Assembly (NCBI RefSeq): GCF_014844135.1
Contig: NZ_CP041403.1
Coordinates: 1,736,001-1,800,000 of the forward strand
Direction of reading: 5' to 3'
Length of the DNA stretch: 64,000 nucleotides
Origin: Arcobacter sp. FWKO B
GTDB lineage: Bacteria; Campylobacterota; Campylobacteria; Campylobacterales; Arcobacteraceae
In this document: piece by piece, positions 21,761 to 36,429 of the stretch
How positions within the stretch are numbered: position 1 is the first letter of the stretch
How the letters are laid out: each line of letters begins with the position of its first letter
Made by a program: the position numbers and the translations under genes
Notes under the pieces: generated by a model
Seen by the model: only the letters and a program-made list of their open reading frames with translations
The model's database searches: none
Told to the model about the DNA's origin: nothing

Positions 21761-21877
21761 TTACTTCTTAGAACAACTATTTTTACCACATCCACAACCA
21801 CTACTTTTAAATAGTGACTTGTAGATGAAATAAACTGCCCATGCAAAAACTGCACCTATAAATATGGTTTCTAACAT
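21761..21877 (-). CDS. 38-aa Cys-rich membrane peptide (FeoB-associated type), copy A
   Basis: A short gene too small for most ORF filters. It encodes a 38-residue peptide: one membrane helix (IFIGAVFAWAVYFIYKSLF), then a Cys-rich tail CGCGKNSC ending in SKK. This layout is that of FeoB-associated Cys-rich membrane proteins, although no feoB is in the window. A near-identical copy is at 32674-32790. The fur gene upstream ends at 21878, one base away, so the two are surely co-transcribed. Confidence 0.8.
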   Translation of the reverse strand: MLETIFIGAVFAWAVYFIYKSLFKSSGCGCGKNSCSKK

Positions 21878-22327
21878 TTATTTACCTTTACATTCAGAAC
21901 AAATACCATAAATCGTCATATTGTGTGATTCTATAGTAAAACCATTTGCAGTAGCAATTTCTAGTTGTGATTTTTCTATATCTTCATCAAAAAACTCAAC
22001 AACCTTGCCACACTCTGTACATATGATATGGTCATGATGTTCATCTAGTGCTATTTCGTAGCTTTTTGTATTGGAGTTATCTTTTACTATCGATGATACA
22101 ATATTTGAATTTTCTAAGAAATTAAGATTTCTGTATACTGTAGCAATACCAATGTTTATTTGGTATTTTTTCTTAATAATAGATGCAATTTCTTCAGCAT
22201 TTAAATGTCTTTTATCTTCAAAAAGAACTTTTAAAATAGCCTCTTTTTGAACAGTATTTGAGAGTCCTGCTTTTTTTAGGTATGTTGAGAAACTTTTCAT
22301 AAATGAATCGAAGTTTTTGTTTTCCAT
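21878..22327 (-). CDS. fur: Ferric uptake regulator Fur, copy A
   Basis: A 149-residue Fur-family repressor. The winged helix includes HLNAEEIASIIKKKY and IGIATVYRNLNFLE; the metal sites are EHHDHIICTECGK and GICSECKGK, giving the CxxC pairs of the structural zinc site. The ATG at 22327 was preferred because the conserved start MENKNFDSF aligns with copy B, whereas the upstream ATG lies in the promoter region. It is divergent from the ferritin gene with Fur-box-like sites between, so autoregulation is likely. Fur is preferred over PerR because of the iron-uptake context. Confidence 0.93.
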   Translation of the reverse strand: MENKNFDSFMKSFSTYLKKAGLSNTVQKEAILKVLFEDKRHLNAEEIASIIKKKYQINIGIATVYRNLNFLENSNIVSSIVKDNSNTKSYEIALDEHHDHIICTECGKVVEFFDEDIEKSQLEIATANGFTIESHNMTIYGICSECKGK

Positions 22328-22403
22328 TTGTATTCCATAATTGATAATTGATATTAAAATCATAACAAAATAAAGCTTTATTATTTCTTAATCAAAATAT
22401 TTT

Positions 22404-22471
22404 GATAACTATTATCGATTTAAGTTTTAATAAAGTTTTGTTCTGATATTATTTCAATGATAGTGATTATC
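22404..22471. promoter_or_regulatory. Fur-box-like sites between fur A and ferritin A
   Basis: Two 13-bp cores matching the GATAATnATTATC theme occur: GATAACTATTATC at 22404-22416 and GATAGTGATTATC at 22459-22471. The second lies 21 bp before the ferritin ATG, where it could block transcription start or elongation. A third degenerate A/T run of the same type (GATAATTGATATTAAAATC) lies at 22342-22360 in front of fur. Binding is inferred from the consensus. Confidence 0.7.
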
Positions 22472-22492
22472 AAATACAAAAGAGGAGACAAT

Positions 22493-22984
22493 ATGTTATC
22501 ACAAAAAATGATAGACAAGTTAAATGAGCAAGTAAATTTAGAGATGTATTCATCTAATATATATCTTGCTATGAGTGCTTGGTGTTCTAGTAAAGGCTTA
22601 GTTGGAAGTGCAAAGTTTTTAAAAGATCACTCAACAGAAGAATTAAGTCATGCTTATAAGCTTTTTGACTATATAAATGAAACTGGTGCATTGGCACAAG
22701 TTGGACAGATAGATGCACCAAAAAGTGATTTTGTAGATATAAAAGATGTATTTCATAAGACATATGAGCATGAACTAAAAGTTTCAAAATCAATTTTTGA
22801 ACTAGTAGATGCAGCATTAAATGAAAAAGATTATGCAACATTTAATTTTTTACAATGGTATGTCACAGAACAACACGAAGAAGAAAAACTGTTCAAAGAT
22901 ATACTTGATAAAATAGATATTATTGGAACTGATGGAAGAGGGTTGTTTATGATTGATAGAGAAATAGGGAATTTGATTAAATAA
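22493..22984 (+). CDS. ftnA: Non-haem ferritin, copy A
   Basis: A 163-residue ferritin, starting MLSQKMIDKLNEQVNLEMYS. The di-iron centre residues sit in NEQVNLEMYSSNIYLAMS, HSTEELSHAYKLFDY and NFLQWYVTEQHEEEKLFKDI, all family standard. It stores iron as a 24-mer in the cytoplasm. The ATG at 22493 has GAGGAG upstream; an alternative at 22457 would begin inside the Fur box. It opens the ferritin, unknown protein, flavodoxin run. Confidence 0.96.
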   Translation: MLSQKMIDKLNEQVNLEMYSSNIYLAMSAWCSSKGLVGSAKFLKDHSTEELSHAYKLFDYINETGALAQVGQIDAPKSDFVDIKDVFHKTYEHELKVSKSIFELVDAALNEKDYATFNFLQWYVTEQHEEEKLFKDILDKIDIIGTDGRGLFMIDREIGNLIK

Positions 22985-23006
22985 ATGTAACATACAAGGA
23001 GTGATT

Positions 23007-23777
23007 ATGTCAGCTTTAGGATTTATAAAAGATATAGAATATTTGGTGAGTTTTGATAAATTTGAGGATAGTAACTCTCAAAGAAGATTGTTTTTGGAGT
23101 TTTTTAACACACAAGTTGATAAAAAAATCAGATTTACAAAAAATGAAATTTGTACCTTGAGCAATATGCCATTAAAAGATATATTTGTAGCAAAGATATG
23201 TGTAATGCTTGGGATTGTATCTATTCCTTATGTAACACACCAAAAACATATAATAAAAAATCTAAAGTTTGATATAACACTCAATAAATTTATCCCAAAT
23301 ATCAATATACCAAAAGCTTGCTTTAGTCTAAAAATATACAATAAAAATAAAACAGATTTACAAAGTGCTATTAAACTTATAAATTTAATAGATAGTACAA
23401 ATTTTGATTTCAGACTTGATGCTAGAGATGCCTTTAGGCAGTATATATTAAATAAACTTTTAAAAGATCAAAAAACAAGGTATATAAATAATACTCACAA
23501 CTCCATAAGTATAATACCAACCCAAGAAGAACCTTTGATGATATATCCTTTTTGGGAGATGGTAGGTAAATCTAATCAACTGATAGATGAACATATACAA
23601 AAGGCAGTTGAATGTATAAAGCAAAGTGATTTTAAGCAAGTATATCTTGTATATCCAAAAAATGAAAATTTTGAAAAACATATAGAAATAAAAATAAGAG
23701 AATTTGAAGATAACATCTCCTGTCGTGGGTATGTTGTAAAAATTATACCATATTCACTACGATCGATTTTAAGATAA
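23007..23777 (+). CDS. Unknown protein between ferritin and flavodoxin, copy A
   Basis: A 256-residue soluble protein that I do not recognise. It has no signal peptide or membrane segment. The best conserved parts against copy B (33922-34674) are the start MSALGFIKDIEYL, the middle FRLDARDAFRQYILNKLLKDQ, the stretch SISIIPTQEEPLMIYPFWEM and the end VYPKNENFEKHIEI...SLRSILR; the region near 85-115 differs. ATG 23007 is chosen over GTG 23001 by alignment with copy B and by AAGGAG. Constant placement between ferritin and flavodoxin under Fur-type sites suggests a part in iron storage or release. Confidence 0.82.
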   Translation: MSALGFIKDIEYLVSFDKFEDSNSQRRLFLEFFNTQVDKKIRFTKNEICTLSNMPLKDIFVAKICVMLGIVSIPYVTHQKHIIKNLKFDITLNKFIPNINIPKACFSLKIYNKNKTDLQSAIKLINLIDSTNFDFRLDARDAFRQYILNKLLKDQKTRYINNTHNSISIIPTQEEPLMIYPFWEMVGKSNQLIDEHIQKAVECIKQSDFKQVYLVYPKNENFEKHIEIKIREFEDNISCRGYVVKIIPYSLRSILR

Positions 23778-23790
23778 AATAGGAGAAAAA

Positions 23791-24282
23791 ATGATACCAG
23801 TATTTTTTACAAGCAGTACAGGAAATAGTGAAACAGCTGCTAAAAAAATAGCAACTGTAATTGGAAATTCACAGGTTTTTGATTTGGCAAAAGTTGGAGT
23901 TGAAGAACTTACTAAGTATGATAAGCTTATCATAGGTACTTCTACATGGGGAGAGGGTGAGTTGCAAGATGACTTTGAAGAGCTTTGGGATAAGTTTGCT
24001 GATATAGATTTTAGTGGTAAGACTATAGCACTTTTTGGTCTTGGTGATCAAGATGGGTATTCATATAATTATTGTGATGCTATGGGACTTATCTATAATC
24101 AAGTGGTACAAAACGGTGGAAATGTAGTGGGGAGTTATTTTGATGGGGACTATGAATTTGAAGAATCAATAGCTTTTAAGGATGGTAAATTTGTGGGACT
24201 TCCTTTAGATGAAGATAATCAAAGTGATCTCACTGATAGTCGTATCAAGTCTTGGTGCGAAGAAATCAAAGATAGTTTCTAA
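23791..24282 (+). CDS. Flavodoxin, copy A
   Basis: A 163-residue flavodoxin of the long-chain size. The FMN phosphate loop is FFTSSTGNSETAAKK; GTSTWGEGELQDDFEELW and FGLGDQDGYSYNYCDAMG are the other FMN-binding loops. Flavodoxin replaces ferredoxin as electron carrier when iron is short, and can reduce ferric iron in stored or haem forms. It follows the unknown protein by 13 bp with AGGAG upstream. Confidence 0.95.
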   Translation: MIPVFFTSSTGNSETAAKKIATVIGNSQVFDLAKVGVEELTKYDKLIIGTSTWGEGELQDDFEELWDKFADIDFSGKTIALFGLGDQDGYSYNYCDAMGLIYNQVVQNGGNVVGSYFDGDYEFEESIAFKDGKFVGLPLDEDNQSDLTDSRIKSWCEEIKDSF

Positions 24283-24345
24283 GGTACTAAGCTACTGAGA
24301 AAAAACTAAGTACCTAAGTACCTCAGAACCTCAGTATCTTCTTAA
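24283..24345. repeat. Spacer hairpin repeat, GTACCTCAG family, copy A
   Basis: The spacer after flavodoxin holds repeated words AGTACCTAAGTACCTCAG and their complements (GGTACTAAGCTACTGAG), able to fold into a hairpin. The matching spacer in copy B (35182-35255) and a third stretch at 39654-39692 share the words in another arrangement. Confidence 0.6.
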
Positions 24346-24361
24346 AGAATTGGAGTGAAAG

Positions 24362-24496
24362 ATGTATAAAATGAAACGAAAACAACAAGCAACAGAATAT
24401 ATGATACTTATTATGATGGCAATAGGTATGTCTGTAATTAGTTATTTTTTAAGTGAATTTATCTTTTTAGTGAATGAAAAGAATTTTTTATACTAA
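24362..24496 (+). CDS. 44-aa single-pass membrane peptide, copy A
   Basis: A short gene encoding a 44-residue peptide: a basic start (MYKMKRKQQATEY), then one long membrane helix with two Met-Met or Ile-Met patches (MILIMMAIGMSVISYFL). It has GGAGTG 7 nt before the ATG. The diverged copy at 35268-35399 keeps the start MYKMK, EYMILIMMAI and the length, which argues that it is translated. Function unknown; the place just ahead of exbB suggests a link with the energy-transducing complex. Confidence 0.7.
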   Translation: MYKMKRKQQATEYMILIMMAIGMSVISYFLSEFIFLVNEKNFLY

Positions 24497-24502
24497 TTAA
24501 CT

Positions 24503-24578
24503 GATAGCAATTATCAATTTAAGTATAATAAAAGTTTTAATGTGTTAATATTTCATTAATCTAATGATAGTGATTATC
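24503..24578. promoter_or_regulatory. Paired Fur-box-like sites before exbB A
   Basis: Cores GATAGCAATTATC (24503-24515) and GATAGTGATTATC (24566-24578) lie 63 bp apart, the second 24 bp before the exbB start. The same two-site arrangement precedes exbB B at 35409-35421 and 35472-35484, again 63 bp apart. They suggest iron repression of exbB-exbD-hemP. Confidence 0.7.
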
Positions 24579-24601
24579 ATATCATTAATAAAAGGGTAAC
24601 G

Positions 24602-25024
24602 ATGGAAATATTAAAAGATTATGTAGAATATGCTGTTTTAGGTGTTTTATTAATAATGAGTTTTGTAGCTTTAAGTATTATGTTTGAGAGATATTTTTTT
24701 TACAAAAAGGTTGATTTAAAACAATACAAAACAAAAAATGAAATAGAAATTGAGCTTACAAATAATTTAGCAGCACTTTCTATAATTGGTTCTAATGCTC
24801 CTTATGTTGGACTTCTTGGAACAGTTGCAGGGATTATGATTGTTTTTTATGATATGGGTATGCAATCTTCTATTGATCCAAATATTATAGTAATAGGTTT
24901 ATCAATGGCTCTAAAAGTGACAGCAGTTGGTCTTCTTGTAGCAATACCTACAACAATGGTATACAATATGTACCTTAGAAAAGTAGATACGATAATGGGA
25001 AAATGGGAAGATGAGGTCGCTTAA
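24602..25024 (+). CDS. exbB: ExbB proton-channel subunit, copy A
   Basis: A 140-residue inner-membrane protein of the ExbB/TolQ/MotA family, here in the short three-helix form. Membrane segments lie near 12-30, 58-82 and 97-120; NAPYVGLLGTVAGIMIVFYDMG and LSMALKVTAVGLLVAIPTTMVYN are the family signatures. With ExbD it powers TonB using the proton gradient. Its end overlaps exbD by 14 bp. Confidence 0.95.
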   Translation: MEILKDYVEYAVLGVLLIMSFVALSIMFERYFFYKKVDLKQYKTKNEIEIELTNNLAALSIIGSNAPYVGLLGTVAGIMIVFYDMGMQSSIDPNIIVIGLSMALKVTAVGLLVAIPTTMVYNMYLRKVDTIMGKWEDEVA

Positions 25025-25388
25025 AAAAACAGAAGGGATGAATGTTATCCCATTTATTGATGTATTGCTTGTACTTCTTGCTATAGTATTTGTAATATCA
25101 AATTTTATAGCTCTGGGTAAAATAGAGATAAATCTACCCCAAGCTTCAAATATACAAGAAATTGATGATATCAAGCACAATATTGTGATATCTCAAGATA
25201 GACAATATTACATAAATGATAAAGAAATTTCAAAAGAAGAGCTAGAATTAAAAATCAAAGCATTTACAAAAGATGATTTAGTAACTATCAGTTCTGATAA
25301 ACATTCATTATATGAAGATTTTATTTTTGTGATAGATTTATTAAAACAATACAGCATAGATAAAGTATCAATGGTGGTGAAAAAATGA
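25011..25388 (+). CDS. exbD: ExbD, copy A
   Basis: A 125-residue ExbD/TolR protein. The N-terminal membrane helix contains the essential aspartate in NVIPFIDVLLVLLAIVFV; the periplasmic domain includes YYINDKEISKEEL and VTISSDKHSLYEDFIFVIDLLKQY. It starts inside exbB and ends overlapping hemP in the sequence ATGA. Its first 130 bases and last 100 bases are nearly identical at DNA level to copy B, unlike the middle. Confidence 0.95.
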   Translation: MRSLKKTEGMNVIPFIDVLLVLLAIVFVISNFIALGKIEINLPQASNIQEIDDIKHNIVISQDRQYYINDKEISKEELELKIKAFTKDDLVTISSDKHSLYEDFIFVIDLLKQYSIDKVSMVVKK

Positions 25389-25528
25389 CAAAGAAAATGG
25401 ATAATTTTATAAGAATCATAGATTCAAACTCTTTATTTAAAGGTAGCAATGTAGTAGAAGTGGTACACAAAGGTACAATTTATGTAATGAGAATCACAAA
25501 AGATGGTAAGTTGATATTGACTAAGTAG
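25385..25528 (+). CDS. hemP: HemP haemin uptake protein, copy A
   Basis: A 47-residue protein of the HemP family, ending in the family signature YVMRITKDGKLILTK with the conserved ...VEVVHKGTIY. HemP genes accompany haem uptake systems and in some bacteria act as regulators or RNA-level signals of haem receptor expression. The start overlaps the exbD stop by 4 bp. The protein is the same as copy B at 36286-36429, with only a few DNA differences. Confidence 0.9.
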   Translation: MTKKMDNFIRIIDSNSLFKGSNVVEVVHKGTIYVMRITKDGKLILTK

Positions 25529-25550
25529 TTTTTAGGTGGTAGATGGTAGA

Positions 25551-25672
25551 TGGAACGCCAGTCTTTCTCACAGAGAGTGAAAGCACAAGACTGGTGATTA
25601 TTAAGACAAGCCCAGTCAGAGACTGGGGTTCCAACTCACAACTCACAACTCACGACTGACGACTCACGAATT
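25551..25672. repeat. Intergenic repeat tract: GGAACGC...GGGGTTCC copy 3 plus CAACTCA tandem words
   Basis: Positions 25551-25632 form the longest copy of the inverted-repeat family (TGGAACGCCAGTC to GACTGGGGTTCCA), with two internal CCAGTC/GACTGG hairpins. It is followed by tandem CAACTCA and CGACTCA words to 25672 and preceded by GGTAGATGGTAGATGG. All of this sits between hemP and the next ribosome binding site. Confidence 0.7.
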
Positions 25673-25692
25673 AAAAAAAGGAGAAAAACAAA

Positions 25693-26490
25693 ATGACAAA
25701 AAAGATAATATTAAGTTCAGTAGTAGCTTTTGGAATAGCTGCAAGTAGTGCTATGGCACATTTTCAAATGTTATATACGCCAGAGAGTGCTTTGGAAAAA
25801 GGTGGGAAGATTACACTTAAACATGTATTCAATCACCCTTTTGCGGATGAACATACTATGGATATGTCTGGGGTTGAAGCTTTTTATGTAGTTCATAAAG
25901 AAGAAAAAACAGACCTTATGAAAGATTTGAAACCAATTACTTTTAAAGGTAATACAAACAGTGGAAAAGGGTTTGAAAATGATTACAATGCAAGAAAAAT
26001 GGGTGATCATCTTTTTGTAATGACTCCAAAACCATATTTTGAAAAAAATGAAGATGCGTATATACAGCAAATTACAAAAACTGTGGTAAATGTATCTGGT
26101 CTTCCTACAGATTGGGACGCAGAGCTTGGTCTAAAAGCTGAAATTGTACCTCTTACAAAACCATATGCTATATATTCTGGCGGAACATTTACAGGTATAG
26201 TAAAAAGTAATGGCAAACCAATACCTTATGCTGAGATAGAAGTAGAATACCTAAACCACGATGTGGATATGAAAAACAATGCTATGGGTAAAGGTAAATA
26301 CACTGCACCTCAAGATTCTTTTGTAACAATAGGTATAAAAGCAAATAAAGATGGTGAGTTTACATTTGGTATTCCAAAATCAGGATGGTGGGGATTTGCA
26401 GCACTTGGTGTTGGAAGTGATACAGAGTATGAAGGCAAAGAGCTAAGCCAAGACGCAGTTATCTGGATACAAGCCAAAGATATGAAATAA
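25693..26490 (+). CDS. Exported DUF4198-like protein, first of two
   Basis: A 265-residue protein with a clear signal peptide (MTKKIILSSVVAFGIAASSAMA), so mature from about AHFQMLY. The mature start, the GGTFTGIVKSNGKPIPYAEIEVEY beta domain and the C-terminal KDGEFTFGIPKSGWWGFAAL fit DUF4198 proteins, related to periplasmic components of metal uptake. Histidines are frequent near the mature N-terminus (AHF, LKHVFNHPFADEH). It precedes a TonB receptor, and another such protein follows the receptor. A metal or metal-chelate binding role is inferred. Confidence 0.82.
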   Translation: MTKKIILSSVVAFGIAASSAMAHFQMLYTPESALEKGGKITLKHVFNHPFADEHTMDMSGVEAFYVVHKEEKTDLMKDLKPITFKGNTNSGKGFENDYNARKMGDHLFVMTPKPYFEKNEDAYIQQITKTVVNVSGLPTDWDAELGLKAEIVPLTKPYAIYSGGTFTGIVKSNGKPIPYAEIEVEYLNHDVDMKNNAMGKGKYTAPQDSFVTIGIKANKDGEFTFGIPKSGWWGFAALGVGSDTEYEGKELSQDAVIWIQAKDMK

Positions 26491-26520
26491 TATAAAAAAG
26501 GGATTTTAACCCTTTTTTAT
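26491..26520 (+). terminator. Rho-independent terminator after first DUF4198-like gene
   Basis: AAAAAAGGG and CCCTTTTTT pair around the loop ATTTTAA immediately after the stop codon, with a T run. A clear intrinsic terminator that separates this gene from the receptor downstream. Confidence 0.85.
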
Positions 26521-26628
26521 ATAGAATAAAAATACTCTCATTTAAAAATTCAATAAAAGTTTTTCAACCACCTCTCTTTTATCAATCTCTCATATAAGTT
26601 CACCCAATGTTTGTTTTGGGATATTATT

Positions 26629-26796
26629 AAACCCAAATTATGCAATAGAAATCACATAACTTACTTCAGTCATTGCACTATGGGCATTCACAAAAAATCA
26701 TCGATTAACCTCTTGGTTAACCTCAAATTTTTTATAAACACCCATAGCACAAGCACTTGAAGAATTTCTAGCGATTCTATTGCATAATTCGGGTTA
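26629..26796. mobile_element. MITE-like long imperfect palindrome
   Basis: A 168-bp non-coding element whose ends are inverted copies: AACCCAAATTATGCAATAGA at the left and the complement of AACCCGAATTATGCAATAGA at the right (one mismatch in 20). Internal arms also pair (GCACTATGGGCATTCACAAA with GTGCTATGGGTGTTTATAAA), around a centre with AACCTCTTGGTTAACCTC. It has no ORF. The whole gap 26521-27041 otherwise holds only this element and the receptor control region. Whether it is a mobile MITE or a single large RNA hairpin cannot be settled from one copy. Confidence 0.6.
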
Positions 26797-26879: not shown

Positions 26880-27016
26880 TGAAAATCAATATCAATATTA
26901 AGAAGTTTTTAAGTTACAATTCTGTAATATTTCAATAATTATTATCAATAAGATAATTATTAACTAATTAGCCAGCAAATTACTCTTTGTTCTCCGAGTC
27001 ATAGTAGCCAGCCAAA
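26880..27016 (+). promoter_or_regulatory. Control region and leader of first TonB receptor
   Basis: AT-rich Fur-type runs lie at 26880-26897 (TGAAAATCAATATCAATA) and 26932-26961 (with AATAATTATTATC). Downstream comes a paired element: TAGCCAGC at 26969-26976 and TAGCCAGCC at 27005-27013, 36 bp apart. The same order of sites is found before the second receptor (37346-37465). The ribosome binding site AAGGATGG follows. Shared layout in front of two diverged genes suggests a real regulatory leader. Confidence 0.65.
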
Positions 27017-27041: not shown

Positions 27042-29036
27042 ATGCAAAAAATTGTTTTATCCACAATTGTAGCTTCTGTTTTATTTGTCCCAAATGTATT
27101 GTTTGGCAATGATTCAAGACAATCTACAATTGAATTGGATTCTGTAGTAATGACTGGGACACGAACACCTCACTTAATAGATGAAGTACCCGTTGAAACT
27201 GTAGTGATTACAAAAGAGATGATAGAAAAAAGTGGTGCTACAAATTTACCTCAAATTCTAAGAATGGTACCAGGATATACAAGTACAAACTTGGATGATA
27301 CCATAGCATCTGATAATATTCGTACTACATTTAGGGGTATGAATTTTAGTAGTGGTTATGGGCTTGTCTTGGTGGATGGTCAAAGAAGTTGGGGGGGAGG
27401 GCTAGGTTCTCATAATTCAATGAGACCAACTATGAATCAAGTACCTGTTTCTATGATTGAAAGGATAGAGATTATTAAAGGTTCAGCTTCTTCTCTCTAG
27501 GGAGCTGATGCAATGGCTGGTGTTATTAATATCATAACAAAAAAAATACCAAATGAACCAACAACAACTGCAAGTATCAGTAGAGGTAGTTACAAAGTGA
27601 AATCATCAACTGGGACTACTGCTGCAAATGAAGTAGTTACACCTACAAGACAGTCTACGGCATTTAATGCATCATATGCTGATGGTATTGGTGAAAACAC
27701 ATCTTTTATGGCAATGTATGAGCATAAAGAAGATGAAGGACACAATAAATTGCCACAAAAGGCAGTATCTGATACTGTTTTACTCAAGACTACTACACAT
27801 GTAAATGATAATTTAAAGGTTACTGCAAATATAGGTGCTGAGAGACAAAGGGTTGATGCTACAACTGTTCCTACTACAACATTATCAAAATACGAAAGAG
27901 AATATGACTCTATATTTACAAGTCTTGGTGCTGTTCATTCTACTAAAAGCCATCTTTGGACAACGAATGTAAATTATAAAGATCAAGATGTATCCACAAG
28001 TACTGGCAGATCATCTGGAAATTATCAACAAACAATGGTTGAGAGTATTTATACACATTTGGGTGATAGTCAGTGGATTACAGTTGGTGGTGAAGCAAGA
28101 AATGAAGAAGCTGATATTACAAATTTAGCAGCAAATTATACAGATGTCGAATATCAGGTTAAGGTTGATATCAAAAATTATGCAGCATTTGTACAAGATG
28201 AAATTAGTTTCTTTGATGGTGATTTGGTTGTTATTCCAGGAGTTAGGTTTGAAGACCACTCAAAATATGGTAACAGCACAAGTCCAAAGATTTCTACTAT
28301 GTATAAAATAGGTGATAATACAACATTTAGGGTATCAGTTGGTAAAGCGTTTAAAGCACCACATCTTCAACAGCTTTATATGGATAGGACTAGAAAGCAT
28401 GGAAGTTTTGAATATGAAAAATCAAATCCAAATTTAAAAGCAGAAAAATCACTAGGATATAATTTGTCATTAGAACACAAATGGCAAGATGTTCCATTGT
28501 GGGGTAGCTTAAGTGCTTTTCAAACTGATGTAAAAGATATGGTAATAAAAGTAGATACTGGTAATTTGATACTAGGCTTACCTGAGAGAACCTATGACAA
28601 TGCAGATAAAGCTGAGGTAAAAGGTCTTGAAATGGCATTTCAATGGGGTGAAGATAGAGGATTTTATCTCAATGGAAGTGCTGGTATCACAAGTAGCAAA
28701 CAAACAAGTGGTATATATAAAGACAAGTATATAACCTACGTACCAAAACATCAGATTAATATAACCCCAGGATATACAGCAAATTCAGGTAAATATGGAG
28801 TGCAGTTAAATTATCTAATAACAGGCAAACAGTACCAAGATGTAAATAATACACTAGAAACAAAAGCTCATAATGTACTAGATATGAATACTTGGATGTT
28901 AATTGGTAGTAAAAAAGATGCACCAAAATTATCTTTGACTTTGGCAAATTTGACTGATTCAGATAAAGGCGAAACTCAAGTTAATAGATATAGAGTTGGT
29001 AGAAGTGTAAAAGTTGCTTTAAGCGGTAAATTTTAA
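27042..29036 (+). pseudogene. TonB-dependent outer-membrane receptor interrupted by an in-frame TAG
   Basis: The frame encodes a 664-codon receptor: signal peptide (MQKIVLSTIVASVLFVPNVLFG), TonB-box region LDSVVMTGTRTP, plug domain, then a beta-barrel ending in an aromatic-final KVALSGKF. A TAG at 27498-27500 interrupts the plug in IEIIKGSASSL(stop)GADAMAGVINIITKK. The second receptor has tyrosine at this place (SLLYGSDAMGGVINIITKK), so one base change TAT/TAC to TAG explains it. No other stop or frameshift is present, so the lesion is recent, a sequencing error, or suppressed. Substrate unknown; iron or haem complexes fit the neighbours. Confidence 0.88.
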
Positions 29037-29050
29037 AATAAGGATTGAAG

Positions 29051-29869
29051 ATGTTAAAAGTATTAAAAAAAGTAAACGGTTTGGTTTTGGCTTCAGCGAT
29101 GACTATTGGCTTGACAAATGTAGCATTTGCACATGATTTTTGGCTATATTCAAATGATTATAATCCAAATTTAGCAAAACTAGGTGCTAGTACAAAGATT
29201 TATTTTGGGTGGGGGCATGGTTTTCCTATAGATGACCCATTATCAAAAGATAAAGTAGAAGAACTATATATCAAAAATGCAAAAGGTAAGACAATCATAG
29301 AACCAAAGCAAGCAAGTGGAGTTTTTGTAGATAAAATTGTTTTGAAAGAGCAAGGGTCTTATGTAGTTGGTGGAATAATGCAAGGTGGAATACTCTCTTA
29401 TACGCTAGATGATAAAGGAGATAAAGTAAAACATATTGGCAAAGGCAAAAAAGATGGCTTAAAAAATCTAGTTTCAAGTACATTTTATCAAAAATTTGCA
29501 AAAGCAATTATAAATGTAGGTGATTCAAAAGATGATGTTTTCTCTCAACCAATAGGGCATACTTTTGAAATAATACCTTTGGATAATCCAAAAGATTTGA
29601 AACAAAATGATTTTATAAGTATCAAAGTTGTACATAATAGCAAGCCAGTATCAGGGGCAGATGTATATGCAACATATGCAGGATTTTCAAAAAGTGGCGA
29701 TTTTTCTTATGCAACACATACAAACAAAGAGGGTATAGCAAAAGTTAGATTATCAACTTTAGGTCATTGGATGATTAAAAGTAATATCCAAATAGAACCA
29801 ACAAAAGAACAGAAAAAAGATTTTGATGAAATTTCCTATTCAGCAACTATAAATTTTGAGGTATATTAG
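29051..29869 (+). CDS. Exported DUF4198-like protein, second
   Basis: A 272-residue protein with a signal peptide (LVLASAMTIGLTNVAFA) and mature start HDFWLYSNDYNPN, the AHDFW-type opening characteristic of DUF4198 proteins; GWGHGFPIDDPL and a C-terminal beta domain (ADVYATYAGFSKSGDFSY) follow. It starts 14 bp after the receptor stop, so it is in its operon. I took ATG 29051 rather than TTG 29045. It is only distantly similar to the protein at 25693. Probable periplasmic binding partner for what the receptor imports. Confidence 0.83.
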   Translation: MLKVLKKVNGLVLASAMTIGLTNVAFAHDFWLYSNDYNPNLAKLGASTKIYFGWGHGFPIDDPLSKDKVEELYIKNAKGKTIIEPKQASGVFVDKIVLKEQGSYVVGGIMQGGILSYTLDDKGDKVKHIGKGKKDGLKNLVSSTFYQKFAKAIINVGDSKDDVFSQPIGHTFEIIPLDNPKDLKQNDFISIKVVHNSKPVSGADVYATYAGFSKSGDFSYATHTNKEGIAKVRLSTLGHWMIKSNIQIEPTKEQKKDFDEISYSATINFEVY

Positions 29870-29901: not shown

Positions 29902-32157
29902 TCTAAACTTTTTAACAGCTTGCACCATATTGGCTAAAGCTGGGGTTACTTCTTCCCATTTTCGTGTTTTTAATCCACAATCAGGATTTATCCAAAGCTG
30001 TTCTTTTGGTAGTACTTCCAAAAGAAGTTGTATTTGAGTTTCTATCTCTTGCACACTTGGAATCCTTGGGCTATGTATATCATAAACTCCTGGGCCTATC
30101 TCTTTTGAATATCCTGAACTTTTAAAAATTTGCAACAATCTATTTCCACTTTTTGCGGTTTCTATAGTAATCACATCGGCATCCATTGCTTCTATGGTAT
30201 GGATGATATCACCAAACTCACTATAACACATATGTGTGTGGATTTGTGTTTGAGTGTATGCGGAGCTAACTGATAGTTTGAAGCTTTTTACTGCCCAATT
30301 TTCATAGTCACTTATATTTTCAGCTCTCAAAGGATAGCCTTCTTTAAATGCTGCTTCATCTACTTGGATTATTTTGATACCGTTTTTTTGCAAGTCATCT
30401 ATCTCATCAGCCAAACAAAGTGCTATTTGATAAGCTATTTGGCTTTTTGGTAAATCATCTCTTACAAAAGACCAGTTGATGATAGTAACAGGACCTGTAA
30501 GCATCCCTTTTACTATTTTGTTTGTAATACTTTGTGCATAAGTTATCCATTTGGTTGTCATTGGAGCATCAAGGCTTACATCACCGTATAAAATAGGGGG
30601 TTTTACACATCTAGCACCATAGCTTTGAACCCAGCCGTTTGAACTAAAAGCAAAACCGTTCATTTGTTCTCCAAAATACTCAACCATATCATTTCTCTCA
30701 GGTTCACCGTGTACTAGTACATCAAGCCCAATGCTTTCTTGCTTTTTGATACAATCATCAATATAAGATTTGATATAAGCTTCATAATCTTCAAGTGAAA
30801 TTGTTTTTTGCTTGTACTCTTTTCTTACATTCCTTAGTTCGTTTGTTTGAGGAAATGAACCTATAGTAGTAGTCGCTAAATCAGGGTATTTTAGAGTTTC
30901 TCTTTGGATTTTTAGTCTTTTGCTTACTTCTAGTTCTCTTTCCCAAGAAGATATATTTTGGACTCTTTTGTTTACATCAAGATTATGTATTTTTGATGAT
31001 GTTTTTTTGGATTCTATTGCTTTTTGGTTGTTTTGAACAAACTCTTTATCCTTTTGACTCAAAGGTTCATTGAAAAATAGTTTTGACAAAATCGCCACTT
31101 CATCAAGCTTTTCTACAGCAAAACTTAGCCAATTTTTCAGTTCACTATCAAGCTTTTGTTCATATTTTAGAGTAAAAGGGGAGTGAAGTAAAGAGCAACT
31201 ACTTGTGATTATGATTTTATCTTTTGGGATTATCTCACCTATAGTATGTAAAAGTTTGATACTTTTTTGTAAATCATTTTTCCAAATATTTCTACCATTT
31301 ACCACACCAGCAAATAGTATCTTATCACTTTTTGCTATCCAATCTAAGCTTTGTAGATTTTTCTCACCTGCTACAAAGTCTAGTCCCATAGCCCAAATTG
31401 GAGTGTTTACAAGTATTTTTGTAGCTTCGTTTGAGTGTTCAAAATATGTTGTTACTATTATCTTGATATTTGGTGATATATTTGCAAGTTTATCATAACA
31501 ATTTTTCAAAAGTCCAAGCTCTCCATTTGTAGGTTCTTTTGCAAAATACGGCTCATCAAACTGCACTATTACTTCATCATCAAGGCTTGAAATCTCACTC
31601 AAAAGCTCACTATAAATATCAACAACCTTTGCAAAATGCAAAAACTTATCACTTCCATCTGTAGTACTAAGTCCAAGAAAAGTCACTGCACCTATTAGGT
31701 TGATTTTGGTTTTAAGTCCTATTTCTTTGGCTTGTTTGTACTCTGATATTATCTTAGTGCTATCAAGTCTAAAGCTTTGGTTTTTGTGAAGTTCAGGTAC
31801 TATATAGTGGTAGTTTGTATTAAACCATTTTGTCATTGCCATAGCAACACCATCTTTATAACCTCTAGCCATTGCAAAGTATTGTTCTGTCTTGTTTTGG
31901 ATAGTTGCAAACCTTTGCGGTACACATCCTAACATCATGATAGTATCAAGCATACCGTCGTAATATGAAAAATCATTTGAGCTAATAAGCTCAATCCCTG
32001 CATTTTTTTGGTATTCCCAATGTCTTATTTTTAGTTCATTTGCGGTTTTTTCAACTTCATCAAACTCACACCCTTTTGCCCAGAATTTCTCCAAAGTAAA
32101 CTTCAATTCTCTTTTTTCCCCGATTCTAGGAAACCCGACTATGCTATTTTTTTGCAT
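29899..32157 (-). CDS. metE: Cobalamin-independent methionine synthase
   Basis: A 752-residue MetE that transfers a methyl group from methyltetrahydrofolate-triglutamate to homocysteine. Seen: MQKNSIVGFPRIGEKRELKF, the zinc ligands in IHTHMCYSEFGDI and INPDCGLKTRKW, and TTTIGSFPQTNELR at the start of the C-terminal barrel. ATG 32157 matches the family start; the upstream ATG at 32202 adds 15 unrelated residues. It is transcribed against its neighbours and splits the two iron blocks. I saw no recognisable SAM or B12 riboswitch upstream. Confidence 0.96.
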   Translation of the reverse strand: MQKNSIVGFPRIGEKRELKFTLEKFWAKGCEFDEVEKTANELKIRHWEYQKNAGIELISSNDFSYYDGMLDTIMMLGCVPQRFATIQNKTEQYFAMARGYKDGVAMAMTKWFNTNYHYIVPELHKNQSFRLDSTKIISEYKQAKEIGLKTKINLIGAVTFLGLSTTDGSDKFLHFAKVVDIYSELLSEISSLDDEVIVQFDEPYFAKEPTNGELGLLKNCYDKLANISPNIKIIVTTYFEHSNEATKILVNTPIWAMGLDFVAGEKNLQSLDWIAKSDKILFAGVVNGRNIWKNDLQKSIKLLHTIGEIIPKDKIIITSSCSLLHSPFTLKYEQKLDSELKNWLSFAVEKLDEVAILSKLFFNEPLSQKDKEFVQNNQKAIESKKTSSKIHNLDVNKRVQNISSWERELEVSKRLKIQRETLKYPDLATTTIGSFPQTNELRNVRKEYKQKTISLEDYEAYIKSYIDDCIKKQESIGLDVLVHGEPERNDMVEYFGEQMNGFAFSSNGWVQSYGARCVKPPILYGDVSLDAPMTTKWITYAQSITNKIVKGMLTGPVTIINWSFVRDDLPKSQIAYQIALCLADEIDDLQKNGIKIIQVDEAAFKEGYPLRAENISDYENWAVKSFKLSVSSAYTQTQIHTHMCYSEFGDIIHTIEAMDADVITIETAKSGNRLLQIFKSSGYSKEIGPGVYDIHSPRIPSVQEIETQIQLLLEVLPKEQLWINPDCGLKTRKWEEVTPALANMVQAVKKFR

Positions 32158-32202
32158 TAATTTATCCTTGTATTTAAATATTTTTGATAATACAAAGCCC
32201 AA

Positions 32203-32670
32203 ATGGAATATGGTATAAAAGGTAGAGGACTTGTTAGATTTTACTTTTTACCTTTTACCTAAAAGTAGGGTGGGTGTATTCCGCTTCTTCGGAAGCTAAA
32301 GCATTTAGAACTGCATTGGCATTTTTTGATTTTTTTGGATGCACAAAGTGCAAGTTTTGATTTTTTGTTGAAATAACAATTACAATGGCAAGGTTTTGAG
32401 CCTTGGAGATTTAAAAATAGACAAACAGTATCAGTGATAGGAGGTGGGTCTTCATCATCTTCGTCTTCATCATAAGTAGAAGTAGAATATCCCAACGATT
32501 TGGAAACTGTGCATACTTTATCTAGTGCAACTTGTACACTATGAGCTTGAATAGAAGCTAAAGAAAAGTATCGTTTACCAAAACCGCGAGGAGATTTCAA
32601 AAAGGTTTACCTTTTTATGAGATTTTAAAGTATTGTAGTATAAAGAAGCTTTAACTACAATATAAGGAAT
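32203..32670. other. Gap of about 470 bp with no convincing gene
   Basis: Between metE and the second iron block. A minus-strand frame at 32259-32600 encodes 113 residues with an acidic run (DEDEDDED) and Cys-rich stretches (CHCNC, CQCSSKC), but its only start is TTG with no good ribosome binding site and the composition looks incidental. A perfect small hairpin GCTTC-TTCG-GAAGC is near 32282-32296, and AAAAAGG/CCTTTTT pairs at about 32600-32620. I do not call a protein here. Confidence 0.45.
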
Positions 32671-32673
32671 TAA

Positions 32674-32790
32674 TTACTTTTTAGAACAGCTATTCTTCCC
32701 ACATCCACAACCACCACTTTTAAAGAGTGATTTGTAGATAAAATAAACAGCCCAAACAAAGATAAGTCCTATAAAAATTGTTTCTAACAT
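32674..32790 (-). CDS. 38-aa Cys-rich membrane peptide (FeoB-associated type), copy B
   Basis: The second copy of the peptide at 21761: same length, membrane helix IFIGLIFVWAVYFIYKSLF and tail CGCGKNSC ending in SKK, with only a few conservative changes in the helix. It abuts fur B, which ends at 32791. Selection for the peptide rather than the DNA is suggested by synonymous changes in the tail codons. Confidence 0.8.
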   Translation of the reverse strand: MLETIFIGLIFVWAVYFIYKSLFKSGGCGCGKNSCSKK

Positions 32791-33240
32791 TTATTTACCT
32801 TTACATTCAGAACAAATACCGTAGATTGTCATATTGTGTGATTCTATAGTAAAACCATTTGATTGAGCAATTTCTAGTTGAGATTTTTCTATATCTTCAT
32901 CAAAAAATTCTACGACTTTACCACATTGTGTACAGATTATATGGTCATGGTGACCATCAATAGATATTTCATAACTTTTCGTATTTGAGCTATCTTTTAC
33001 TATTGCTGATACTATATTGGAGTTTTCCAAAAAGTTCAGATTTCTGTAAACTGTAGCAATGCCTATATTTATCTTATATTTCTTCTTTACTATTGTAGCT
33101 ATTTCTTCAGCATTTAGATGCCCAGCTTCTTCAAAAAGGACTTTTAAGATAGCTTCTTTTTGGATTGTATTTGATAATCCAGATTTTTTGAGATACGCTG
33201 TAAAGCTTTTTATAAAAGAATCAAAGTTTTTGTTTTCCAT
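32791..33240 (-). CDS. fur: Ferric uptake regulator Fur, copy B
   Basis: A 149-residue Fur paralogue very close to copy A. Differences cluster in the helical region (FEEAGHLNAEEIATIVKKKYK) and around the metal loop, where GHHDHIICTQCGK replaces EHHDHIICTECGK, keeping all cysteines and histidines. The ATG at 33240 has AGGTGA upstream. Two Fur proteins with such close sequence may bind the same sites or form mixed dimers; this is inference. Confidence 0.93.
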   Translation of the reverse strand: MENKNFDSFIKSFTAYLKKSGLSNTIQKEAILKVLFEEAGHLNAEEIATIVKKKYKINIGIATVYRNLNFLENSNIVSAIVKDSSNTKSYEISIDGHHDHIICTQCGKVVEFFDEDIEKSQLEIAQSNGFTIESHNMTIYGICSECKGK

Positions 33241-33316
33241 TTTTTCACCTAAACTGATAATTGATATTAAAATCATAACCAATTAAACCTTTAACATTTC
33301 TTAATTAAAATATTAT

Positions 33317-33384
33317 GATAACTATTATCATTTTAAGGTTTAATAAAGTTTTCTTTTGATATTATTTCACTGATAGTGATTATC
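33317..33384. promoter_or_regulatory. Fur-box-like sites between fur B and ferritin B
   Basis: Cores GATAACTATTATC (33317-33329) and GATAGTGATTATC (33372-33384) have the same sequence as the pair before ferritin A and the same 55-bp separation, while flanking bases differ. Conservation of the cores supports a binding function. Confidence 0.72.
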
Positions 33385-33404
33385 AAATAATAAAGGAGTG
33401 TGAA

Positions 33405-33896
33405 ATGTTGTCACAACAAATGATTGAGAAATTAAATGAACAAGTGAATTTGGAGATGTATTCATCTAATATTTATCTAGCAATGAGTGCATGGTGTTCA
33501 AGTAAGGGTTTACTTGGAAGTGCAAAGTTTTTAAAAGACCACTCAACAGAAGAGCTAAGTCATGCTTATAAGCTTTTTGATTATATAAATGAAACAGGGT
33601 CTTTGGCAAAAATTGGTCAAATAGATGCACCTATGAGTGATTTTTCAGATATAAAAGATGTGTTTCACAAAACTTATGAACATGAATTGAAAGTGTCAAA
33701 ATCTATTTTTGAGCTAGTTGATGCAGCATTAAATGAAAAAGATTACGCAACTTTTAATTTCTTGCAATGGTATGTAACAGAACAACATGAAGAAGAAAAA
33801 CTTTTCAAAGATATTATTGATAAGATAGATATTATCGGTACTGATGGAAGAGGGTTGTTTATGATAGATAGAGAAATTGGGAATTTGATTAAGTAA
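33405..33896 (+). CDS. ftnA: Non-haem ferritin, copy B
   Basis: A 163-residue ferritin almost identical to copy A, with about ten substitutions (for example SLAKIGQIDAPMSDFSD in the middle) and all ferroxidase residues kept. AAGGAG precedes the ATG. The two subunits could form mixed 24-mers. It leads the second copy of the storage and flavodoxin run. Confidence 0.96.
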   Translation: MLSQQMIEKLNEQVNLEMYSSNIYLAMSAWCSSKGLLGSAKFLKDHSTEELSHAYKLFDYINETGSLAKIGQIDAPMSDFSDIKDVFHKTYEHELKVSKSIFELVDAALNEKDYATFNFLQWYVTEQHEEEKLFKDIIDKIDIIGTDGRGLFMIDREIGNLIK

Positions 33897-33921
33897 TTAT
33901 ACTAAATAAAAAGGGGTTAAT

Positions 33922-34674
33922 ATGTCAGCTTTAGGTTTTATAAAAGATATTGAGTATTTGGCTAATTTTGATAAATTTATTGATAGTAAATCACAAAGAA
34001 GGTTGTTCTTGGAGTTGTATAATACTCAAGTTGATAAGAAATTGAGATTTTCAAAAAGTGAAATCTGCGTACTTAGTAAAATGCCTTTAAAAGATATATT
34101 TGTATCAAAAATATGTACAATGCTTGGTGTCGTATCTGTTCCTTATAGTACAAAAAAAGGTGTCTTGGTACAAAATCTAAAGTTTGATGTAAATGTTAAT
34201 TCCTTTTTAAATAATATCAAAATCCCAAATATATATAGAAAAAATACTATTGATTTTCAAAATGCTTTAAAACTTATTATGTTAATAGGTGGGAAAATGC
34301 TTGATTTTAGACTTGATGCTAGTGATGCTTTTAGACAATTTATATTGAATAAACTTTTGAAAGATCAAAAAAATAGATATATAGAACATACCAACAACTC
34401 TATAAGTATAATACCTACACAAGATGAGCCTTTGATGATTTATCCTTTTTGGGAAATGGTTGGCAAATCTGAGCCTTTGATAGGTGAACATATAAAAAGG
34501 GCGGTGGAGTGTATAAAAAAGAGTGATTTCAAACAAGTTTATCTTGTCTATCCAAAAAATGAGAATTTTGAAAAACATATAGAAGTAAAAATAAGAGAAT
34601 TTGAAAATAATCTCTCCTGTAGTGGGTATGTGGTAAAAGTTATACCTTACTCATTACGATCGATTTTGAGATAA
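33922..34674 (+). CDS. Unknown protein between ferritin and flavodoxin, copy B
   Basis: A 250-residue paralogue of the protein at 23007, of unrecognised family. It keeps the start MSALGFIKDIEYL, FRLDASDAFRQFILNKLLKDQ, the TQDEPLMIYPFWEM block and the end SLRSILR, and has a six-residue deletion near residue 97-103 where copy A reads CFSLKIYNK. No signal peptide or membrane helix. It lies 25 bp after ferritin and 15 bp before flavodoxin. Confidence 0.82.
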   Translation: MSALGFIKDIEYLANFDKFIDSKSQRRLFLELYNTQVDKKLRFSKSEICVLSKMPLKDIFVSKICTMLGVVSVPYSTKKGVLVQNLKFDVNVNSFLNNIKIPNIYRKNTIDFQNALKLIMLIGGKMLDFRLDASDAFRQFILNKLLKDQKNRYIEHTNNSISIIPTQDEPLMIYPFWEMVGKSEPLIGEHIKRAVECIKKSDFKQVYLVYPKNENFEKHIEVKIREFENNLSCSGYVVKVIPYSLRSILR

Positions 34675-34689
34675 AAAAGAGGAGAAAAA

Positions 34690-35181
34690 ATGATACCTGT
34701 GTTTTTTACAAGTAGTACAGGAAACAGCGAAACAGCTGCAAAAAAAATTGCAAAAGAGTTAGGTGATGCACAAATATTTGATTTGGCAAAAGTTGGTGTG
34801 GATGCGATAAAAAACCATGATAAACTTATTATTGGTACATCTACATGGGGTGAGGGTGAGTTGCAAGATGACTTTGAAGAGCTTTGGGATAAGTTTGCTG
34901 ATATAGATTTTAGTGGTAAAACAGTAGCACTTTTTGGTCTTGGTGATCAAGATGGATATTCTTATAATTACTGCGATGCTATGGGACTTATTTATAACCA
35001 AGTAGTACAAAATGGTGGTACTGTGGTTGGAAGTTATTTTGACGGGGATTATGAATTTGAAGAATCAGTTGCTTACAAAAATGGCAGATTTGTAGGACTT
35101 CCTTTAGATGAGGATAATCAAAGTGATTTGACTGATAGTCGTATCAAGTCTTGGTGCGGGGAAATTAAAGAGAGTTTCTAA
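34690..35181 (+). CDS. Flavodoxin, copy B
   Basis: A 163-residue flavodoxin with the FMN loops FFTSSTGNSETAAKK, GTSTWGEGELQDDF and GLGDQDGYSYNYC all identical to copy A; changes sit mainly at residues 23-45. It is expected to carry electrons in place of ferredoxin under iron limitation. AGAGGAG precedes the start. Confidence 0.95.
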   Translation: MIPVFFTSSTGNSETAAKKIAKELGDAQIFDLAKVGVDAIKNHDKLIIGTSTWGEGELQDDFEELWDKFADIDFSGKTVALFGLGDQDGYSYNYCDAMGLIYNQVVQNGGTVVGSYFDGDYEFEESVAYKNGRFVGLPLDEDNQSDLTDSRIKSWCGEIKESF

Positions 35182-35255
35182 AGTACTAAGCTACTTAGGT
35201 ACTGAGAAAAAACTAAGTAGCTCAGTACCTCAGAACCTCAGTACCTTCTTAAAGA
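35182..35255. repeat. Spacer hairpin repeat, GTACCTCAG family, copy B
   Basis: The same spacer position as 24283-24345, with the words AGTACCTCAGAACCTCAG and TACTTAGGTACTGAG arranged as a longer fold-back. The differences between copies A and B look like slippage or shuffling of the repeat words. Confidence 0.6.
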
Positions 35256-35267
35256 ATGGAGTGAAAG

Positions 35268-35399
35268 ATGTATAAAATGAAAAAAAGAGAACAAGCAATA
35301 GAGTATATGATACTTATAATGATGGCAATAAGTGTATTGATAGTTACATATTTGTTGATGGAATTTGTATTATTGTTTAATGAAACATATTTTTTTTGA
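35268..35399 (+). CDS. 43-aa single-pass membrane peptide, copy B
   Basis: The paralogue of the peptide at 24362: start MYKMKKREQAIEY, then a membrane helix (MILIMMAISVLIVTYLL) and a short acidic to aromatic end. About half the residues differ from copy A but the reading frame, the ribosome binding site GGAGTG and the EYMILIMMAI core are kept. Function unknown. Confidence 0.7.
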   Translation: MYKMKKREQAIEYMILIMMAISVLIVTYLLMEFVLLFNETYFF

Positions 35400-35408
35400 A
35401 ATTTAGTT

Positions 35409-35484
35409 GATATCAATTATCATTTTAAGTAGAACTAAAGGAAAAAATTGTTAATATTCCGTTAATATATTGATATTAATTATC
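35409..35484. promoter_or_regulatory. Paired Fur-box-like sites before exbB B
   Basis: GATATCAATTATC at 35409-35421 and GATATTAATTATC at 35472-35484. They match the placement and spacing of the pair before exbB A but with different bases at the centre, suggesting a different affinity. Confidence 0.68.
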
Positions 35485-35502
35485 ACTAAAGAAAGGTTAG
35501 AG

Positions 35503-35925
35503 ATGGAATTTTTGAAAGATTATGTGGAATATGCTGTTTTGGCTGTATTGCTTATTATGAGTTTTGTGGCGGTCAGTATTACTATAGAGCGATATTTTTT
35601 CTATAGAAAAGTAAATCTTAAACAGTACAAAACAAAGAATGAAGTTGAAATAGGACTTACAAACAACCTATCAGCTCTTTCTATCATAGGCTCAAATGCT
35701 CCTTATATAGGGCTTCTTGGGACTGTTGCAGGGATTATGATAGTTTTTTATGATATGGGTATGCAATCAAGTATTGACCCAAATGTGATAGTAATAGGAC
35801 TTTCAATGGCATTGAAAGTCACAGCAGTTGGGCTTCTTGTGGCAATACCTACGACTATGATTTATAATATGTATTTAAGAAAAGCTGACACACTTATAGG
35901 AAAATGGGAAGATGAGATCGCTTAA
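35503..35925 (+). CDS. exbB: ExbB proton-channel subunit, copy B
   Basis: A 140-residue ExbB, close to copy A (MEFLKDYVEYAVLAVLLIMSF; NAPYIGLLGTVAGIMIVFYDMG). ATG 35503 aligns with copy A; the upstream ATG at 35470 lies in the Fur-box region. Its stop overlaps exbD B by 14 bp as in copy A. Confidence 0.95.
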   Translation: MEFLKDYVEYAVLAVLLIMSFVAVSITIERYFFYRKVNLKQYKTKNEVEIGLTNNLSALSIIGSNAPYIGLLGTVAGIMIVFYDMGMQSSIDPNVIVIGLSMALKVTAVGLLVAIPTTMIYNMYLRKADTLIGKWEDEIA

Positions 35926-36289
35926 AAAAACAGAAGGGATGAATGTTATCCCATTTATTGATGTATTACTTGTACTTCTTGCTATAGTATTTGTAATATC
36001 AAATTTTATAGCTCTAGGTAAAATAGAGATAAATTTGCCCCAAGCATCAAATATCGAGCAGATTGAAGAGATAAAGCATAATATAGTGGTTTCAGAAGAC
36101 AGAAAATATTATATAAATGATAAAGAAGTATGTAAAAGAAAATTAGAAGAAGCTATAAAAACATTTACAAAAGATGACACAGTAACAATAAGTTCTGATA
36201 AACATTCATTATATGAAGATTTTATTTTTGTGATAGATTTATTGAAACAATACAATGTGGATAAAGTATCAATGGTGGTGAAAAAATGA
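35912..36289 (+). CDS. exbD: ExbD, copy B
   Basis: A 125-residue ExbD. The first 48 residues, including the essential aspartate in IPFIDVLL, are identical to copy A and the DNA there is nearly so; the middle (YYINDKEVCKRKLEEAIKTF) differs and includes a cysteine absent from copy A; the last 30 residues match again. It overlaps hemP B by 4 bp. Confidence 0.95.
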   Translation: MRSLKKTEGMNVIPFIDVLLVLLAIVFVISNFIALGKIEINLPQASNIEQIEEIKHNIVVSEDRKYYINDKEVCKRKLEEAIKTFTKDDTVTISSDKHSLYEDFIFVIDLLKQYNVDKVSMVVKK

Positions 36290-36429
36290 CAAAGAAAATG
36301 GATAATTTTATAAGAATCATAGATTCAAACTCTTTATTTAAAGGTAGCAATGTAGTAGAAGTGGTACACAAAGGTACAATTTATGTAATGAGAATTACTA
36401 AAGATGGGAAGTTGATACTGACTAAGTAG
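36286..36429 (+). CDS. hemP: HemP haemin uptake protein, copy B
   Basis: A 47-residue HemP with the same protein sequence as copy A. The first 100 or so bases are identical to copy A at DNA level. It ends the block that is duplicated; sequence downstream differs entirely between copies. Confidence 0.9.
   Translation: MTKKMDNFIRIIDSNSLFKGSNVVEVVHKGTIYVMRITKDGKLILTK

Follow-up and report, generated by a model that had tools for sequence, protein, structure and literature searches.

The 64,000-nucleotide stretch of the Arcobacter sp. FWKO B chromosome analysed here (the window, to which all positions refer) carries one nine-gene iron block twice, and we consider it likely that the two copies make up a Fur-gated module for iron and haem acquisition, consisting of two anciently diverged paralogous blocks, in which the small protein HemP boosts those receptors whose genes carry a particular leader. 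Block A (21761-25528) and block B (32674-36429) start 10.90-10.92 kb apart and share the order 38-amino-acid Cys-rich peptide, fur, ferritin, a conserved protein of about 250 amino acids (Unk), flavodoxin, 43/44-amino-acid peptide, exbB, exbD and hemP, together with the exbB/exbD and exbD/hemP overlaps and a divergent fur-ferritin promoter. An earlier note on this DNA had placed the block at these positions, about 10.9 kb apart, and both the sequence and a base-by-base alignment (83.6% identity over 3766 aligned bases) bear this out; its title spoke of eight genes, whereas its own list and the sequence give nine. It had also described proteins ranging from identical to clearly diverged and unlike tails, and indeed identity runs from 100% for HemP to 58% for the 43/44-amino-acid peptide (Table 1), with a DUF4198 protein and a receptor following block A and TonB and a receptor following block B. 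Because both blocks lie on the single contig of 2,243,170 bases that forms the chromosome, and because the copies differ by 16%, an assembly artefact and chance are both excluded; the near-saturated synonymous sites likewise rule out a recent repeat. The genome encodes two ferritin-domain proteins, both in the blocks, as well as five Fur-family, five ExbD and four flavodoxin-domain proteins.

For each block, we propose that one divergent Fur-boxed promoter would drive Fur and the Cys-rich peptide in one direction and ferritin, Unk and flavodoxin in the other, that a second would lead into exbB-exbD-hemP, presumably co-transcribed with tonB in B and probably with the DUF4198 gene in A, and that a third would serve the TonB-dependent receptor. 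With ample iron, Fur would shut all three promoters, and at low iron the uptake parts and the receptor would be made. ExbB-ExbD, with TonB, would energise the receptor, whose presumed cargo is iron or haem, while ferritin would store the incoming iron and flavodoxin would spare iron-sulphur electron carriers during iron shortage. HemP would lift receptor expression through a leader resembling the HemP/HmuP-responsive element (HPRE), probably at the mRNA level. As the HemP proteins of A and B do not differ, and as the genome has no such leader other than those of the two block receptors, a single HemP pool would serve both, and cross-talk between A and B is likely. Since the duplication, purifying selection has retained both blocks, and gene conversion has patched them more than once.

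The leader lies downstream of the last Fur box, ahead of the receptor start codon, and follows the pattern TAGCCAGCAAATT...TAGTAGCCAGCC in both blocks, which was noticed in the sequence before any comparison with published HemP targets. In its strict form, it occurs exactly twice in the genome, each time before a block receptor, where the chance expectation is none, and within the family it is found only in this genome (two copies) and in one other member of the genus (three copies), all five preceding TonB receptors. A coding peptide is ruled out as its explanation, as leaders A and B have spacings that are 4 apart. HemP/HmuP is known to work via a direct-repeat element 5' of haem receptor genes (PMC9131926; see also PMC9241770). 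In Chromobacterium violaceum, the HemP protein ChuP binds haem and is a positive post-transcriptional regulator thought to act on mRNA, and the HPRE of chuR, CCCGCAAGCCAGCCGACAGCCAGCCAGCG, lies 26 nucleotides before the ATG (PMC9131926). A direct repeat of the AGCCAGCC type is present in both leaders, hemP is present in the genome, and at the level of sequence the leader repeat is the same as the published HPRE, which would make it a regulatory link missing from the earlier description of the blocks. Rfam gave no match above a gathering score. A looser search returned matches in 40 of 399 genomes of the order, from 18 genera, and leader-bearing loci upstream of TonB-dependent receptors (L067, L068, L102, L133, L177-L182 and L207-L219) come from several Campylobacterales families. 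Among 30 loci with the loose pattern, 15 have it before a TonB receptor-like gene, two directly after hemP and before another gene, and 13 in unrelated positions; because of these 13, the loose pattern by itself lacks specificity. Where the flank was extended, hemP (checked with PF10636) was near the leader at nine of 13 chosen loci. In one other genus, the repeat takes the form TAGCCAGCTGCAAATTCAGCAGCCAGC at similar places in six genomes (L185-L190), with no receptor downstream, and at L133 (3469-5588), from a member of the genus, a receptor with the same leader is split into two overlapping frames of 331 and 379 amino acids, which could reflect a frameshift or an error in a metagenome-assembled genome (MAG).

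The region between the repeats is structured. A stem of at least 3 bp begins exactly 4 nucleotides inside each repeat end in 13 of 21 distinct leaders, compared with a null mean of 0.25 and none of 20000 shuffles reaching 13. This count was not blind, since the anchor was picked once the first set of leaders had been seen, and the leaders added later and an offset scan, with 11 leaders at 4/4 and far fewer outside that nested offset series, provide fairer support. An unanchored search for the best hairpin between the repeats was weakly significant (p 0.009), and the anchored test was strong. The stems are built from at least five different complementary variants (for example GCTT/AAGC, GCTC/GAGC, GCAA/TTGC, ACAGAA/TTCTGT, GTA/TAC and TCT/AGA), and the centre is often TTCTCC; in L216 and L217, both from one family, the spacer is 10 nucleotides long and has no hairpin, as in the published form. 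As the centre varies yet keeps its complementarity at a fixed place, these data favour reading the leader as an RNA element. It could instead be a DNA operator, recognised by HemP or by a different regulator, or a relic left by recombination among receptor genes, given that the receptors behind it vary between species while the leader stays and that HemP/HmuP has been reported to bind DNA in some bacteria, according to work cited in PMC9131926 and PMC9241770. An operator read as sequence, however, would have no need of a variable centre with complementarity at a fixed place, the leader sits 17-35 nucleotides before most start codons, and gel shifts showed no binding of ChuP to DNA (PMC9131926); we regard an operator or a relic as unlikely. 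Returning to the RNA element, we tentatively suggest, with confidence slightly short of even, that the HemP regulon of Campylobacterales targets an RNA element in the 5' leader of the receptor gene, made up of two AGCCAGC repeats held together by a hairpin that covaries, and that the HemP copies may have been kept identical by conversion because both receptors depend on one leader.

Fur control is indicated by where its predicted sites fall. When sites agreeing with the consensus at 14 or more of its 19 positions are counted as Fur-box-like, 14 of the 18 such sites in the window lie inside the six block promoter regions, which occupy 2% of its length, equivalent to 10.6 sites per kb compared with 0.04 per kb in other AT-rich stretches. 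The sites come in pairs, spaced some 52-59 bp, upstream of fur/ferritin, of exbB and of the receptor; this holds for both blocks and partly for the nearest genus member, with the weaker partners of some pairs picked by eye from the sequence, outside the scored sites.

The duplication is old. Identity between A and B at fourfold-degenerate sites is 0.53 for ftn, 0.54 for fur, 0.60 for unk and 0.58 for exbB, similar to the 0.47-0.56 between either copy and the nearest genus member, while exbD and hemP stand at 0.88 and 0.86 between A and B and at just 0.30-0.40 against that relative. The strongest conversion tract covers the 3' end of exbD and hemP, none of 5000 permutations clustered its A=B sites as strongly, and control runs with the other two pairings (A or B with the relative) showed no site clustering. 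Given these fourfold-site values and the clustered A=B sites, the duplicate blocks are old copies between which parts were later transferred by gene conversion, and nonsynonymous-to-synonymous rate ratios (dN/dS) well below 1 in the larger duplicated genes point to purifying selection. The gene trees did not place the duplication in time relative to the split from the nearest genus member. The earlier note had suggested a division of labour rather than a fresh tandem repeat; the fourfold-site values (0.53-0.60) agree that the repeat is not fresh, but the homogenised patches, the identical HemP and the internal stop in receptor A speak against a clean division between A and B. Alternatively, and less likely than not in our view, neither block may be specialised, both being retained for the dosage they give or as spares, with A decaying. 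In favour of this, parts are kept alike by conversion, the HemP proteins are identical and receptor A is interrupted; the long retention, the low dN/dS of the larger genes, the different downstream genes and the diverged 44-amino-acid peptide speak against it.

Evidence from relatives supports the block as a unit. The nearest genus member (L067; MAG UBA6211, 86% complete) has a single block, at the B site and without fur, in the order metE, a 113-amino-acid open reading frame (ORF), Cys-rich peptide, ferritin, unk, flavodoxin, small peptide, exbB, exbD, hemP, tonB and a different receptor. A second genus member (L068) has unk through tonB in unchanged order at a contig edge, and a related genus (L069) has unk-flavodoxin-exbB-exbD-hemP. 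The search of relatives for the gene order that the earlier note had proposed thus finds it kept in the genus and in a related genus, with one copy in L067, and the block is therefore a real unit; since the B position is shared with the genus member, A is the extra copy. The idea in that note of a single iron and haem homeostasis system is reasonable, although most of its parts are known families, and no publication describing the nine-gene block was found in the literature. It is rather improbable, in our estimation, that block A was instead acquired horizontally from an unsampled member of the genus, landed near B and later exchanged patches with it. Such a transfer would account for an A-B distance about the same as that of either block to the genus member, for the block of that relative being at the B site only, and for the absence of tonB and the different tail in A, but both copies carry the same unusual Fur in the same place, the genus member lacks that Fur, and G+C content is alike (0.279 in A, 0.293 in B). 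The furA and furB products are each other's close neighbours on a long branch of the tree and are about 52% identical to the housekeeping Fur of the genus, encoded at 586 kb. Forcing the block Fur together with the housekeeping Fur costs 18 log-likelihood units (approximately unbiased [AU] test, p 0.07), which disfavours an origin from it, and the block Furs are neither that Fur nor recent copies of it; grouping with a second Fur of other Arcobacteraceae is allowed (AU p 0.49-0.54). No outside source was found, as nothing as close as the 52%-identical paralogue in the same genome was recovered from 397 genomes of the phylum (E <= 1e-44), which also counts against a transfer of A.

Several points weigh against a HemP-boosted module with two RNA leaders. 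Receptor B falls below every curated haem-receptor cut-off, its best NCBIfam match being TIGR01785 (TonB-hemin) at 180 bits where the cut-off is 317. Receptor A is broken, and block A may be without a working receptor; with receptor A interrupted by its stop codon, receptor B may carry the load now. The loose leader pattern matches 13 of the 30 loci in places that have no receptor, and no hemP was found within the fetched flank at L207, L209, L210 and L213. The stem of leader A itself, ACTC/GAGT, appears only when the offsets are shifted from 4 and 4 to 5 and 6, the fixed-place stem is absent from about a third of leaders, and the leaders are not all independent, as some belong to related genomes. 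In some leaders the second repeat sequesters the ribosome-binding site, but this was rejected as a general feature (mean z -0.41). HemP/HmuP proteins of Bradyrhizobium japonicum and Burkholderia multivorans are described as DNA-binding in work cited in PMC9131926.

Table 1. Features of the two iron blocks, their promoters, leaders and tails, in window coordinates; identities are between the A and B proteins.
Feature	Position	Strand	Remarks
cysA	21761..21877	-	38-aa membrane peptide, Cys-rich tail; PF12669 FeoB_associated E 9e-5, 23 bits, just short of the 27-bit cut-off
furA	21878..22327	-	149 aa from ATG 22327, ORF opens 22363; PF01475 122.9 bits; HHDH and two CxxC metal motifs intact
Paired Fur boxes, divergent furA/ftnA promoter	22393..22475		14/19 sites at 22398 and 22453
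ftnA, non-haem ferritin	22493..22984	+	94% identical to ftnB
unkA, conserved protein encoded next to flavodoxin	23007..23777	+	no Pfam family; 76% identical to unkB
fldA-A, flavodoxin	23791..24282	+	PF00258 (own-genome search); 88% identical to fldA-B
44-aa single-span peptide (A)	24362..24496	+	no family; present in two genus members
Paired Fur boxes before exbB-A	24500..24580		sites 24560/24566; upstream box ~24503 by eye
exbB-A	24602..25024	+	PF01618 93 bits; 88% identical to exbB-B
exbD-A	25011..25388	+	PF02472 85 bits; 86% identical to exbD-B
Strongest A/B gene-conversion tract (exbD 3' end and hemP)	25257..25504		59/67 informative sites join A and B against the genus member
hemP-A	25385..25528	+	PF10636 56.2 bits, cut-off 25; protein equals HemP-B
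DUF4198 protein, A-specific	25693..26490	+	PF10670 196 bits
Paired Fur boxes before receptor A	26881..26952		sites 26881 and 26934
HPRE-like leader A	26969..27013	+	AGCCAGC repeats around hairpin; core identical in genus member; ~29 nt before receptor ATG
Receptor A, TonB-dependent	27042..29036	+	in-frame TAG at 27498-27500, plug domain; frame continues beyond
Second DUF4198 protein, A-specific, after receptor A	29045..29869	+	PF10670 121.5 bits
cysB	32674..32790	-	89% identical to cysA
furB	32791..33240	-	PF01475 119.7 bits; HHDH and CxxC motifs also present; 87% identical to furA
Paired Fur boxes, furB/ftnB	33311..33390		site 33311; second box ~33370 by eye
ftnB	33405..33896	+	NF007638 207 bits, above cut-off
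unkB	33922..34674	+	searched as a profile of 28 relatives; nothing in Pfam, NCBIfam or PDB
fldA-B, flavodoxin	34690..35181	+	TIGR01752 192 bits, above cut-off
43-aa single-span peptide (B)	35268..35399	+	58% identical to A counterpart
Paired Fur boxes before exbB-B	35409..35490		sites 35409 and 35466
exbB-B	35503..35925	+	TIGR02805 exbB2 182 bits, above cut-off
exbD-B	35912..36289	+	PF02472 84 bits
hemP-B	36286..36429	+	protein identical to HemP-A
tonB, B-specific	36544..37221	+	PF03544 57 bits
Paired Fur boxes before receptor B	37348..37420		site 37348; second box ~37400 by eye
HPRE-like leader B	37425..37465	+	AGCCAGC repeats around variable centre; ~22 nt before receptor ATG
Receptor B, intact TonB-dependent	37487..39553	+	PF00593 and PF07715

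Unk matched nothing in Pfam, NCBIfam or PDB, even as a profile, and an AlphaFold model from a four-row alignment was unusable (predicted local distance difference test [pLDDT] 47). In A, it most likely starts at ATG 23007 and has 256 amino acids, compared with 250 in B. Relatives of Unk are encoded by 72 of the 104 genomes from the family and by 47 of 249 genomes sampled from the order, nearly always immediately upstream of flavodoxin in the examined loci, and a DUF2325-unk-flavodoxin operon is found in several Campylobacterales families, while in the genome of the window DUF2325 lies elsewhere. Judged by gene order, unk-flavodoxin presumably corresponds to the cj1384c-cj1383c-fldA region of Campylobacter jejuni. 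In C. jejuni, cj1383c-cj1384c, upstream of katA, are strongly iron-repressed in a Fur-dependent manner (PMC4491227, PMC3815106). The second Fur of other Arcobacteraceae is often within about 10 kb of unk-flavodoxin, and in the examined loci it can adjoin genes for a P-type ATPase and a ferritin-like DUF2202 protein; at L083 (6832-10998), L090 (5141-9700) and L101 (9525-14136), it lies near a P-type ATPase, DUF2202 and small glycine-rich membrane-type proteins, a gene set reminiscent of ferrosome clusters.

Other observations concern the surroundings of the blocks. In A and B alike, flavodoxin and hemP are each followed by short degenerate repeats. The 113-amino-acid ORF between metE and block B (32259-32600, minus strand; L067 8084-8425, minus strand) has acidic and Cys-rich parts, is almost identical in the genus member and has no family; it may be a conserved non-coding stretch. 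Between receptor B and the next gene, the 8-bp sequence GAGAGACT is repeated in tandem about 10 times (39553-39648). The ATP-binding cassette (ABC) transporter ATPase gene that follows receptor B (40139-40641) is broken, lacking residues ~57-124, including the nucleotide-binding loop, as measured against an intact relative (L088 8316-9098).

The mode of action of HemP/HmuP, on DNA or on RNA, is disputed, and the structured, covarying candidate target in Campylobacterales points to RNA; the leaders of this order form a natural set of variants for testing HemP action, and the hairpin form of the target is the part most worth pursuing. The window holds the full proposed circuit twice, with Fur and HemP as inputs, and shows in a natural setting how gene conversion can rework parts of an operon that has been duplicated.

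Among known systems, the C. jejuni cj1384c-cj1383c region presumably shares the DUF2325-unk-flavodoxin arrangement, judged by gene order, whereas in the genome of the window ferritin takes the place of DUF2325 upstream of unk. The second, locus-linked Fur of other Arcobacteraceae is likewise divergent and, in several genomes, encoded no more than about 10 kb from unk-flavodoxin, but it can accompany a P-type ATPase and ferritin-like set, and it may be kin to the block Fur. Concerted evolution of prokaryotic paralogues (PMC6053082) also leaves paralogues closer than orthologues in patches, although here only parts of a nine-gene block are homogenised. One known genome similarly carries two Fur-repressed hemP-receptor clusters; these contain haem transport genes and receptors that are 62% alike, whereas the shared part here is Fur-ferritin-flavodoxin-ExbBD-HemP and the tails are unlike. 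No hairpin form of the HPRE was found in the literature, in a search that did not cover the original Amarelle et al. 2019 (Biometals 32, 273-291). The HPRE of Ensifer and Chromobacterium is a close counterpart, with a small HemP-family protein in a Fur-linked haem cluster and a AGCCAGCC direct repeat 20-50 nucleotides before the start codon of a TonB-dependent receptor gene; in Campylobacterales, by contrast, the repeats usually stand ~15-36 nucleotides apart with a covarying hairpin between them, and the system is tied to ferritin, flavodoxin and a local Fur.

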